This document shows positions 1,211-20,092 of a stretch of 23,324 nucleotides of DNA, piece by piece. The position numbers and the translations under genes were made by a program. Positions within the stretch are counted from its first letter, which is position 1; every line of letters begins with the position of its first letter. The notes beneath the pieces are model-generated. The model did no database searches. It was not told where the DNA came from and worked only from the letters and a program-made list of their open reading frames with translations. The DNA is from a virus, in the IMG/VR virus record IMGVR_UViG_3300034082_002287, positions 1 to 23,324 of that record, one strand, 5' to 3'.

Positions 1211-1483
1211 TTACGACTTCTTAGTAACCTTGGTAGTAGGTTCAGAAATGTTAGAAACGAAACCATTTAAAGCATGTGCCTTAGTGATGATTTCTTGTTC
1301 TGATGGGAATGATGAATATTCTGGCTGATTAGGTAACTGTTGTCCTTGAGTGCGAGCATTCTCGGAAGCTACCTGCCAGTTATTATGTGCAACTTCCCGT
1401 TTAGACATATACTCCTGTTCGAGCATGTCTTTAGAAAGTTTTAGAAGTTCGAGACGGATCTCGAATGGTGTCATGTTACTCAT
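1211..1483 (-). CDS. conserved T4-like phage protein of unknown function
   Basis: 90 aa, MSNMTPFEIRLELLKLSKDMLEQEY..., with a long N-terminal amphipathic helix likely to form a coiled coil, a Gln/Pro-rich middle and a basic tail (TKVTKKS). Proteins starting MTPFEIRLELLKMAKxML are common in T4-like phages of cyanobacteria and SAR11 as I recall, without assigned function. A strong AAGGAG lies 7 nt before the ATG. It is the first gene downstream of the tmRNA, whose coding piece ends only about 30 nt before this start, so the two probably share a primary transcript. Confidence 0.75.
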   Translation of the reverse strand: MSNMTPFEIRLELLKLSKDMLEQEYMSKREVAHNNWQVASENARTQGQQLPNQPEYSSFPSEQEIITKAHALNGFVSNISEPTTKVTKKS

Positions 1484-1561
1484 ATTTTTCTCCTTGTGTG
1501 ATGAGTGTAGTGTAGTTGGTTATTCTGTTACGAGGAAACCAACTGAAACCCTAGTCAGCGT

Positions 1562-1594
1562 TTAGGCTGCCAATGCGAACTTTTCATCGTTTGC
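1562..1594 (-). other. tmRNA tag-peptide reading frame (ANDEKFALAA)
   Basis: Codons GCA AAC GAT GAA AAG TTC GCA TTG GCA GCC TAA run from 1594 to 1562 and encode the complete degradation tag after the alanine delivered by charged tmRNA. The C-terminal LAA is the ClpX/ClpA recognition end. The E. coli tag is ANDENYALAA; the KF variant is close to ANDERFALAA tags remembered from betaproteobacteria. Confidence 0.93.
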
Positions 1595-1678
1595 AGTTAT
1601 TTTTGTTTTAGTGTTAACGTCAACTCTGACGAGTAGCCAATTTTTGTACTTGTTGCCTTGTCGAAACTAGTCAAGCCC

Positions 1679-1764
1679 ATCATAAGAATTTTGGTTTAGA
1701 TTATCTGGATGTCCGTGATCCCTTAGTCATCTTCATTATCGCACGGCGCAGACCTAAATTCTTA
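1679..1764 (-). other. tmRNA intervening segment with terminal inverted repeat
   Basis: The 86 nt between the encoded CCA and the mature 5' G are bounded by an inverted repeat. CATAAGAATTT at the start pairs with AAATTCTTATG at the end. The pairing continues the acceptor stem across a 2x2 internal loop, so precursor ends would be held in one long helix for RNase P and 3' processing. Permuted bacterial tmRNA precursors have such a removable segment. Confidence 0.8.
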
Positions 1765-1829
1765 TGGTGGACTTGGGGGGATTCGCACCCCCGTCCAAAA
1801 CACTTTTCAAAAAATCAGTTTACTACCAT

Positions 1830-2108
1830 TCATTCTGTTGTTGGTAATACAGTTTCTACTATTTCCATGATAACCAATTCAGGAATTTCAGGAATAGTGT
1901 GTTCAATACCCAATGTTTTGAGAATATCGATTTCCGGATTAATGAAAACATCATCAGCGGAAAGTTCAGTTACTTTTTCAGAAACAAATGCAATCAATTC
2001 TTGTCCTGTTAAACCATCGGGATTAGAAATGTTGGTATAATTCGTTGTTCTGTATTCCACTTTAATTGTAGAATCTTCATTTACTTTGATAAATTGAAAG
2101 TCGTTCAT
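1830..2108 (-). CDS. hypothetical acidic phage protein
   Basis: 92 aa, MNDFQFIKVNEDSTIKVEYRTTNYT..., acidic and rich in beta-prone residues, with no membrane segment. I do not recognise a domain. The start has no Shine-Dalgarno (only A-rich sequence upstream), like the structural gene before it, 23 nt away. Its stop (1832-1830) abuts the acceptor piece of the tmRNA, so the mRNA 3' end and the RNA gene overlap or touch. Position behind a virion-like gene suggests late expression or a structural or assembly role; this is contextual only. Confidence 0.65.
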   Translation of the reverse strand: MNDFQFIKVNEDSTIKVEYRTTNYTNISNPDGLTGQELIAFVSEKVTELSADDVFINPEIDILKTLGIEHTIPEIPELVIMEIVETVLPTTE

Positions 2109-16698: not shown

Positions 16699-16788
16699 TG
16701 GTGGAGTGTCAGGGAGTCGAACCCTGTGACCTACTTTCATAAGTCTACGGATTAGCAATCCGCTGCATTACCATCCTGCCCACACTCC
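16699..16788 (-). tRNA. tRNA-Ser(GCT)
   Basis: GGAGTGT pairs with ACACTCC; anticodon loop TTGCTAA in a GCGGA/TCCGT stem; long class II variable arm; T loop TTCGACT; CCA encoded. Reads AGC/AGT serine codons. It is the last tRNA of the array in transcription order. Confidence 0.95.
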
Positions 16789-18821: not shown

Positions 18822-19026
18822 ATTGCTCTGCATTCCTCGGCGGTAATTATAGTACAAAAAGATATGACGCTATCATACCCCTCACACGTACCTTCCACCC
18901 GCTTCCCGACAGGAACCGTTAACGCATTGCCAGCGGCCTTTTGGTTTAAAGACTACCACCCGTAAGTTACGAACTTACTTCACTTCCTGTGGGTCACAGT
19001 AGCTAAGCGTTACCCTAGCTGGATTC
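18822..19026 (-). ncRNA. 205-nt structured segment between tRNA-Tyr and tRNA-Ala, no gene
   Basis: No open frame of note and no tRNA. On the minus strand it holds several hairpins: GCTA/TAGC near the start, GTAAGTT-CGT-AACTTAC (7 bp) nested in a GACCCAC/GTGG..GTC helix, and TATGA/TCATA near the end. It is GC-richer than its surroundings and more structured than an ordinary spacer. TATAAT occurs close to its 3' end without a good -35. It may be a small RNA processed with the tRNAs. No known RNA family recognised. Confidence 0.45.
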
Positions 19027-19272: not shown

Positions 19273-19278
19273 TAAAAT

Positions 19279-19350
19279 TGGTGGGTGGGAGTGAGAGTCG
19301 AACTCACATTTCAGGGGACCTGATTCTAACCAATTGAAATATCCCAACCC
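19279..19350 (-). pseudogene. tRNA with truncated anticodon arm (pseudo-tRNA)
   Basis: A good T arm (GTGAG-TTCGACT-CTCAC), encoded CCA and a D-arm-like segment (TTTCAATTGGTTAGAAT) are present. The anticodon region is only TCAGG-TCC-CCTGA, a 3-nt loop where 7 are needed; about 8 nt are missing before the T stem. The acceptor GGGTTGG/CCCACCC has a mismatch. No anticodon can be assigned. Spacing fits the array, so the unit is probably a decayed tRNA still transcribed with the others. Confidence 0.7.
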
Positions 19351-19352
19351 AT

Positions 19353-19427
19353 TGGGCAGACGTAAGAGAATTGAACTCTTGATATCGGAATCACAACCCG
19401 AGGTTTTACCACTAAACTAACATCTGC
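19353..19427 (-). tRNA. tRNA-His(GTG)
   Basis: Acceptor CAGATGT/ACGTCTG with an extra 5' G(-1) opposite C73, the histidine identity pair. Anticodon loop TTGTGAT in TCGGG/TCCGA, T arm AAGAG/CTCTT, CCA encoded. Reads CAC/CAT. Confidence 0.94.
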
Positions 19428-19433
19428 ATAATA

Positions 19434-19525
19434 CCATATAGAAGCAATCTTGTTTGGATTCGAACCTTGTTCTAGTATTGTCTATCTGCGCTTCCCACAG
19501 TGCTGACAAGAATGCTTTTATATGG
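19434..19525 (-). other. tRNA-like element enclosed by a long imperfect stem
   Basis: Minus strand: CCATATA and AAGCATTCTTGT at the left pair with ACAAGATTGCTT and TATATGG at the right, about 18 bp with two mismatches. Inside are a T-loop motif (GGTTCGAATCC) and a D-arm-like AGCACTGTGGGAAG, but no proper anticodon arm and no CCA of its own. The left arm includes the CCA end of tRNA-Lys. It is either a decayed tRNA or a processing structure. Confidence 0.5.
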
Positions 19526-19597
19526 TAGAGGCACAGAGAATCGAACTCTGATTTACTGGTTAAAAGCCAGTTACTTTAACCGTTAAGTTATACCTCC
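19523..19597 (-). tRNA. tRNA-Lys(TTT)
   Basis: GGAGGTA/TGCCTCT acceptor, anticodon loop CTTTTAA in ACTGG/CCAGT, T arm CAGAG/CTCTG, CCA encoded. Its first 10 nt double as the last codons and stop of the 43-aa gene. Reads AAA/AAG. Confidence 0.95.
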
Positions 19598-19719
19598 ACA
19601 GGTATTTGTTTTTGTGCTTTACGCATTGCCTTATTAGACTTGCGATGAGCACCTGCTTTACGGAATAAAGCCAAACGAACGAAGCAGTTACGTTCCTTGG
19701 CGATTGATTTTCGCTTCAT
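19588..19719 (-). CDS. 43-aa basic protein overlapping tRNA-Lys
   Basis: 43 aa, MKRKSIAKERNCFVRLALFRKAGAHRKSNKAMRKAQKQIPVEV, about one third Arg+Lys. AAGGAAAG directly before the ATG at 19719 is a strong ribosome site. The pattern RNxFVxLALFRKAGxHxKxxKAxRRxxK is a small basic protein I recall in many phages, often beside tRNA genes, with no known function. The C-terminal PVEV-stop is written in the first nucleotides of tRNA-Lys, so processing of the tRNA would destroy the mRNA end. The charge suggests RNA binding. Confidence 0.75.
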   Translation of the reverse strand: MKRKSIAKERNCFVRLALFRKAGAHRKSNKAMRKAQKQIPVEV

Positions 19720-19736
19720 AACTTTCCTTAAAAAAA

Positions 19737-19814
19737 TGGCAGAGGATACTGGATTCGAACCAGTGATAACGGAGTCAAAGTCCGCTGCTTTAGGCCAGAC
19801 TAAGCTAATCCCCA
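19737..19814 (-). tRNA. tRNA-Gln(TTG)
   Basis: Acceptor TGGGGAT with ATCCTCT (weak T1-T72 end, as glutamine tRNAs favour an open first pair), discriminator G, anticodon loop CTTTGAC in GCGGA/TCCGT, T arm ACTGG/CCAGT, CCA encoded. Reads CAA/CAG. Confidence 0.93.
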
Positions 19815-19821
19815 ACAATAT

Positions 19822-20021
19822 TACCATAATAAAATTTACTGCGAACCATTCACACCTACTTTTCACAGGCTGCGATCCTGCGCTGTGTGCGGTCATTACG
19901 TACAAGCTATCCATCACCATCGTAGCGGCTATCATGAGTATACCTAAACCGGAGACCGCCGTCCCGTTATTTGGTATAGTCCCCTAATGGACTTGTCAAC
20001 GCAATAAATTTTATTATGGTA
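19822..20021 (-). ncRNA. structured RNA segment with 17-bp terminal inverted repeat
   Basis: TACCATAATAAAATTTA (reverse-complement arm at 20005-20021) and its perfect 17-bp partner at 19822-19838 enclose about 166 nt, extended by 4 further pairs after one mismatch. Inside, the minus strand has AGTCC/GGACT, TATACC/GGTATA enclosing AACGG..CCGGTT and GAC-GGCG-GTC, and CACAG/CTGTG hairpins. One arm contains the CCA of tRNA-Glu. No open frame or intact tRNA. Looks like a folded RNA co-transcribed with the tRNAs; family unknown. Confidence 0.55.
19973..19999 (-). promoter_or_regulatory. possible internal promoter in the structured segment
   Basis: TTGACAAG (-35 at 19994-19999) is followed after 15 nt by TATACC (19973-19978). 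The context resembles the phage's other promoters, but spacing is short and the -10 is imperfect. Confidence 0.3.
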
Positions 20022-20092
20022 CTCGGCACGGGAATCGAACCCGTCTTTCCAGCGTGAAAGGCTAGCGTCCTAAACCGATAGACGAGCCGAGC
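20017..20092 (-). tRNA. tRNA-Glu(TTC)
   Basis: GCTCGGC/GCCGAGT acceptor, anticodon loop CTTTCAC in CTAGC/GCTGG, T arm ACGGG/CCCGT, CCA encoded. First tRNA of the array after the boxA-like leader. Reads GAA/GAG. Confidence 0.95.

Follow-up and report, generated by a model that had tools for sequence, protein, structure and literature searches.

Comparative sequence evidence confirms that a 43-aa basic open reading frame (ORF) in a viral tRNA array is a real, conserved small-protein gene, and its stop codon lies inside the tRNA-Lys(UUU) that follows. The same arrangement was recovered in both clades of the family to which the gene belongs, with the stop inside tRNA-Lys(UUU) in 65/66 clade-1 and 17/21 clade-2 genes followed by that tRNA, and the carriers of the family are many large, mostly uncultivated viruses of bacteria. 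The ORF was found in the window, by which we mean the whole 23,324-nt stretch of DNA analyzed (positions 1 to 23,324 of IMG/VR record IMGVR_UViG_3300034082_002287), where the following features, all on the minus strand, are relevant:

19588..19719, minus strand: 43-aa basic ORF of the clade-1 family, ATG at 19719-19717 and TAA at 19590-19588 (homologues, dN/dS).
19725..19729, minus strand: AAGGA, a Shine-Dalgarno (SD)-like site (read from the sequence; SD-like match in 108/119 relatives).
19523..19597, minus strand: tRNA-Lys(UUU) with encoded CCA (ARAGORN, Rfam).
Between 19598 and 19597, minus strand: inferred RNase P cut (from the 5' end of tRNA-Lys).
19588..19597, minus strand: 10-nt overlap, the stop being tRNA nucleotides U8-A9-A10 (ORF and tRNA coordinates).
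19737..19814, minus strand: tRNA-Gln(UUG), directly upstream of the 43-aa ORF (ARAGORN).
19434..19525, minus strand: long-stem RNA element, its 5' arm starting with the CCA of tRNA-Lys (fold of 19427-19525, z -3.58).
1471..1857, minus strand: phage permuted (two-piece) tmRNA with tag ANDEKFALAA, proposed partner (ARAGORN tmRNA call; RF04321 138.3 bits, RF01850 126.7 bits).

The minus strand reads MKRKSIAKERNCFVRLALFRKAGAHRKSNKAMRKAQKQIPVEV followed by a stop from 19719 to 19588, while the plus strand of 19588-19719 contains in-frame stops in the frame translated. With 14 K/R against 2 D/E, the protein has a pI of 11.7. ARAGORN and Rfam agree on 19597 as the first base of tRNA-Lys(TTT), which places the UAA stop of the ORF at nucleotides 8-10 of the tRNA. 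The first-pass annotation had described a basic 43-aa protein ending 10 nt inside tRNA-Lys behind a strong ribosome site; both descriptions hold, with the addition of the minus strand, which it had left unstated, and with the ribosome site located at 19729-19725, 5 nt ahead of the ATG. The gene sits between tRNA-Gln and tRNA-Lys(UUU), its start 17 nt past tRNA-Gln, within an array that runs along the minus strand from tRNA-Glu at 20092 to tRNA-Ser at 16699. The window thus contains a gene–tRNA-Lys overlap module (tRNA-Lys(UUU) directly downstream, stop inside it) and has the layout of tRNA punctuation, with gene and tRNAs on one strand and a tRNA overlapping the end of the coding sequence.

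Other features of the array were also observed. Three inter-tRNA gaps of the window (19427-19525, 19815-20016, and 18822-19026, minus strand) hold RNA-like elements with fold z-scores of -3.58, -2.13, and -1.89, the first two having long AU-rich terminal stems, and they may represent a family of RNAs bounded by stems that occurs in phage tRNA arrays. The sequence right after tRNA-Lys, CCATATAAAA-C, is seen again in several relatives. At 19273-19352 (minus strand) lies a tRNA-like sequence with a T-arm that is absent from the ARAGORN and Rfam (gathering score) lists.

A tblastn search of 50,697 phage records with E up to 10 matched four, namely Acidovorax phage ACP17 (two records), Synechococcus phage BUCT-ZZ01, and Variovorax phage V45v66. 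A match in Pseudomonas phage Peetri from another search (E 6) falls inside a longer annotated coding sequence and was treated as chance. The BUCT-ZZ01 relative is a 48-aa annotated hypothetical protein with a 21-nt overlap with its own tRNA-Lys(UUU), and no tRNA was found within 4 kb of the gene in ACP17 and V45v66. Profile scans, four over viral contigs and one over genomes, gave 239 loci, which together with the window represent 119 distinct genes; the clade-1 set therefore comprises at least 119 genes, since the first scan contributed its top 80 out of 116 relatives and the third its top 80 out of 139. Across 45 sequences, the clade-1 core RN..V..A..RKAG.H.KS.KA.R has 7 invariant and 6 nearly invariant columns; the window protein carries this core, and its profile E of 2.2e-25 is a self-match. 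Clade 1 is, judging from the aligned genes, under purifying selection. Among the 66 genes with tRNA-Lys(UUU) next, the median pairwise dN/dS is 0.14 (1299/2145 pairs usable), and entropy at the three codon positions is 0.65/0.49/1.26 bits. The SD-like matches counted in 108/119 clade-1 genes are at least 4 nt long, with the start codon having been picked partly by SD score.

Searches of Pfam, PHROGs, NCBIfam (6 proteins scanned), PADLOC (3 proteins scanned), and PDB returned weak matches only, none of them convincing for the small-protein family. Among 45 members, the best Pfam match was to WDR35 TPR (E 0.0071, 4 members) and the best PHROG match likewise had an E of 0.0071 (1 member), while the PDB search to E 10 gave 0 matches. 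For the window protein itself, PHROG 17833 (E 0.19) and Pfam CP2 (E 0.086) were taken as chance. An AlphaFold model from a 45-row alignment predicts, at low confidence (mean pLDDT 75, pTM 0.32), two short helices at residues 12-21 and 29-38 around the conserved AG.H.KS. The small basic protein is probably RNA-binding.

Several loci show peculiarities of their own. In the MKKK..RNYLVKLALFRK subgroup (L057, L066, L067, L205, and similar), the 3' end of the gene enters a long inverted repeat, TTGTATCCTATT...AATAGGATACAA, just before a non-Lys tRNA, and in some loci this repeat encloses a TTGACA/TATAAT-like promoter. A GOLLD RNA (223 bits) containing a tRNA lies upstream of the family gene at L062:2271-2726. 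The Achromobacter anxifer contig NZ_CAHLAR010000005.1 (L085) packs 27 tRNAs into 6 kb, and its family gene crosses the whole of tRNA-Lys and reaches into tRNA-Asn.

The next same-strand tRNA after the 119 clade-1 genes is Lys(UUU) in 66, Lys(CUU) in 4, and another tRNA in 35, with none in the sequence examined for 14. Stops inside tRNA-Lys(UUU) fall at nucleotides 8-10 in 33 genes and after 21 nt in 10, the rest ranging from 8 to 188 nt, and the overlaps occur in all three phases. When genes were clustered at 80% DNA identity, 21/35 clusters held Lys(UUU) genes, 20 of these 21 with overlap. The conserved core, meanwhile, ends at least 12 nt ahead of the tRNA in 66/66 Lys(UUU) genes. Because overlaps of 8 to 188 nt occur in all phases and the core always lies upstream, what is conserved is the absence of any stop ahead of the tRNA rather than a particular tail, and a selected C-terminal peptide encoded by the tRNA is ruled out by the variation in overlap length, frame, and tail residues. 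The first-pass annotation had counted homologues that do not overlap tRNAs as evidence against its interpretation. Some members are of this kind: in the flanks retrieved for the Acidovorax ACP17, Variovorax V45v66, and Thiomonas-type genes, no tRNA was found. The overlap stands in all but one of the Lys(UUU)-followed clade-1 genes. Homologues without a tRNA nearby, together with the 35 genes followed by another tRNA, indicate that the protein can exist without the overlap.

Clade 2, a divergent form (MKTRKPRNHVALALMKRGGSGSH.KSHKQLR) that resembles the clade-1 profile at 22 bits and E 4e-9 (one sequence), was found through a reverse scan of tRNA-Lys sites. Its 27 loci represent 21 distinct genes, and tRNA-Lys(UUU) comes next in 21/21, with 16 stops lying 10 nt inside the tRNA, one 8 nt inside, and four ending 1 nt before it. 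The reverse scans took in 80 of 120 and 80 of 119 stretches as loci. Among the matches listed, a clade-1 gene is directly upstream of 16/76 phage-type and 3/66 bacterial-type tRNA-Lys sites, and 19/19 of these genes overlap; most listed tRNA-Lys sites are thus without a family gene, but where one is directly upstream it overlaps. At the remaining 118 listed sites, a non-family SD-ORF overlaps the tRNA in 1. The one case, L410:512-625 (minus strand), is a 38-aa ORF with AAGGAG that seems unrelated and likewise ends 10 nt inside tRNA-Lys(UUU), a hint of other small ORFs at the same tRNA-Lys site.

We tentatively propose that gene and tRNA form a coupled unit, in which translation, termination within the tRNA, and maturation by RNase P would follow one another and leave a nonstop mRNA as a substrate of tmRNA; this reading of the layout is a serious possibility, if somewhat short of probable. 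The small-protein gene and the tRNAs would be co-transcribed, and ribosomes would translate the intact precursor and terminate at a stop supplied by the 5' part of the tRNA, often U8-A9-N10. The tRNA would then fold, and the RNase P cut at its 5' end would remove the stop and leave a nonstop message. Because the core lies wholly upstream of the tRNA, 5' maturation would strip the stop from the core message; as read from the sequence, a cut at the 5' end of tRNA-Lys would deprive the window message of its stop and leave it ending on the second base of codon 41. Any ribosome newly initiating on the cut fragment would stall, and trans-translation would free it, possibly through the permuted tmRNA that the phage itself encodes. 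In this way, tRNA-Lys maturation would end the productive life of the message and tie a burst of basic protein to tRNA-Lys production.

The claim of the first-pass annotation that maturation of the tRNA truncates the mRNA without a stop codon is what the layout predicts for the 65/66 clade-1 and 17/21 clade-2 genes. Its further claim that protein and tRNA are mutually exclusive products of a transcript was overstated: a single precursor could serve translation to begin with and be processed afterwards, so exclusivity is not a consequence. The proposed order is sequential, protein and then tRNA. Overall, its interpretation is partly supported. A stronger version of the coupled unit would be a processing-gated circuit, in which the only stop lies inside tRNA-Lys(UUU), each maturation event yields a nonstop mRNA for the phage's permuted tmRNA, and the dose of protein is set by a race between ribosome and RNase P, thereby linking tRNA-Lys supply, protein, and trans-translation. 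We regard this full circuit, which is likewise read from gene order and sequence, as unlikely.

The suggested link to tmRNA has unexpected comparative support. The window itself encodes a permuted tmRNA, with a tag frame and an RF04321 score over the gathering value of 47 bits, and among records of at least 90 kb a permuted tmRNA was found in 11/11 with a clade-1 overlap compared with 4/10 with the gene but no overlap (p 0.004), the 90-kb limit having been set after the result was known and the tmRNA statistics ignoring phylogeny. Counts are based on RF04321, the general permuted model; on 20 records, RF00023 gave no match over the cut-off and RF01850 matched 11/20. RF04321 exceeded the cut-off in 24/50 long gene-carrying records, which divide, at any size, into 19/27 with overlap and 5/23 without (p 0.0008, uncorrected for phylogeny). 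Overlap was checked directly in L137, L486, and L489, and L140, whose contig ends inside the tRNA, was placed in the overlap group on the strength of its 120-nt identity with L136. Permuted tmRNAs were also present in 11/12 clade-2 records, including 9/10 with overlap; in G074, the one overlap record lacking a match over the cut-off, a weak partial tmRNA match lies at the contig end. At L426:679-1091, a permuted tmRNA with tag ANDQVYALAA lies in a tRNA array shared with a clade-2 gene.

Records with tRNA-Lys but no detectable gene carried a permuted tmRNA in 7/23 cases, and in 5/10 of the phage-type tRNA-Lys subset. Overlap records of clades 1 and 2 together (20/21; records of at least 90 kb, except that the clade-2 ones include four that are shorter) differ from the gene-less records (p 8e-6) and from the 10 phage-type ones (p 0.007), while clade 1 at all sizes (19/27) compared with phage-type gene-less records (5/10) gave no significant difference (p 0.27). 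A tmRNA was seen in the fetched flanks of 2/119 loci, a count that is uninformative because the flanks are short. In the available part of a survey of phage tmRNAs, 50/53 two-piece tmRNAs came from marine or aquatic phages (PMC9004378), and a shared aquatic origin is a possible common cause of the overlap–tmRNA association.

The strongest rival to the coupled unit is compact packing without function, in which the protein is real and the overlap neutral, an unconstrained tail taking a free stop from the tRNA, with the pair inherited or transferred together. We consider this explanation possible, though on balance doubtful. It accounts for tails whose lengths, frames, and residues vary freely, and the conserved U8-A9 of tRNAs can, with N10, act as a built-in stop codon, as the sequences suggest. 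We compared the family with predicted control ORFs (ATG plus SD, at least 70 aa; not annotated genes, and from clade-1 loci only), of which 13/76 overlap the following tRNA and 6/76, as packing would have it, stop exactly at tRNA nucleotides 8-10. When the controls were limited to ORFs whose end precedes a tRNA by at most 17 nt or overlaps it (n = 45), 13 overlapped and 32 stopped before it, compared with overlap in 41/45 family clusters (Fisher p 1.3e-9, relatedness uncorrected). Stopping before the tRNA needs few changes, yet only 5/87 family genes (L183 and four of clade 2) keep a stop just before tRNA-Lys, against the 32/45 nearby predicted ORFs.

The neighborhood of the gene bears on packing in both directions. 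Distances between genes and between tRNA-Lys sequences are correlated (Mantel r 0.38, reached in 0/999 permutations), as co-inheritance predicts, and the order Ala-gene-Lys is nearly fixed in clade 2, where Ala precedes 20/21 genes, so that synteny alone could hold the pair together. Against packing, tRNA-Lys is retained across 35 clade-1 clusters while both outer neighbors change, with 13 kinds of tRNA upstream and 13 kinds after Lys. Some clade-1 tRNA-Lys bodies also differ strongly behind similar genes, with the UUU anticodon unchanged: in 12 pairs, gene identity is at least 0.75 and tRNA-Lys identity at most 0.62 (e.g., 0.87 vs 0.62 for L158/L171). This pattern is consistent with the tRNA body having been replaced repeatedly while the anticodon stayed the same, with strong divergence as an alternative.

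A second explanation centers on the tRNA itself: the basic protein would bind or protect tRNA-Lys(UUU), a known target of anticodon nucleases such as PrrC and the PARIS effector AriB, and the overlap would be incidental. Lys(UUU) comes next in 66/105 clade-1 genes with a downstream tRNA although it makes up 6.3% of the 1073 tRNAs in the 66 Lys(UUU)-followed clade-1 loci, and the low-confidence model of a basic two-helix protein is compatible with such a role. Phage tRNA-Lys is described, in the portions of the articles at hand, as helping phages past PARIS (PMC12409363) and PrrC170 (PMC11555353). Nonetheless, homologues exist in phages without a tRNA in the fetched flanks, PADLOC, a library of defense rather than anti-defense systems, gave no match for 3 members, and 65/66 anticodon loops have the usual sequence CUUUUAA, with no change of a kind that might evade a nuclease. 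We find counter-defense by the protein decidedly unlikely. More improbable still by a wide measure is an attenuator, in which a Lys-rich ORF senses charged tRNA-Lys: scarcity would cause an upstream pause and let the tRNA fold and mature, and plenty would have terminating ribosomes cover the 5' part of the tRNA. Lys codons do make up 458/3192 in the 66 genes, with tRNA-Lys next, but such a content is expected of any basic protein, and amino-acid-level conservation and tRNA-free homologues indicate a protein with a function of its own. A chance ORF in intergenic DNA, which the short length and the commonness of chance ORFs in tRNA arrays might suggest, is rejected as virtually inconceivable given 119 distinct homologues, their conservation and ribosome sites, and the low dN/dS of the tested subset.

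What sets the family apart is that, while absent from the libraries searched, it is tied at many loci to one phage tRNA by a shared stop. Should the overlap prove functional, phage tmRNA would have a natural built-in substrate, with a bearing on why some phages carry one, and it would follow that tRNA processing can switch off a message of bacterial type. The specificity for Lys(UUU) also draws attention to the tRNA that the available text of the articles found cites most frequently as a target of anticodon nucleases. The open-licence literature searched showed no report of this family, of its association with tRNA-Lys(UUU), of the stop codon that the two have in common, or of any gene overlapping a phage tRNA.

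Its components—tRNA punctuation, phage tmRNA, and counter-defense tRNAs—each have precedent. In E. coli, the tyrT rtT RNA encodes the protamine-like peptide Tpr, which, like the window protein, is small, basic, and encoded alongside tRNA genes; the Tpr gene follows the tRNA, however, and is not known to have its stop within one. No relevant paper on Tpr appeared in the open-licence literature searched. The counter-defense cases of T5 against PARIS and SP15 against PrrC170 share with the window a tRNA-Lys(UUU) in a phage tRNA array, although there the tRNA alone was studied, with no overlapping small protein mentioned in the available portions (PMC12409363, PMC11555353). The survey accompanying methylophage Melnitz reports, in the part available, tmRNA in 402 phages, given as 2.3% of 18,146 genomes; the window encodes a two-piece tmRNA of the Melnitz type, and that part of the paper names no phage mRNA as a built-in tmRNA substrate (PMC9004378). 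A related layout is that of animal mitochondria, in which, according to the accessible text, coding messages abut tRNAs within one transcript and tRNA excision sets the mRNA end without an encoded stop and can yield nonstop mRNAs (PMC9674279). Mitochondria, however, finish the stop by polyadenylation, whereas here one small phage gene is involved, rescue by tmRNA is a proposal, and the unprocessed tRNA already contains the stop codon in full.
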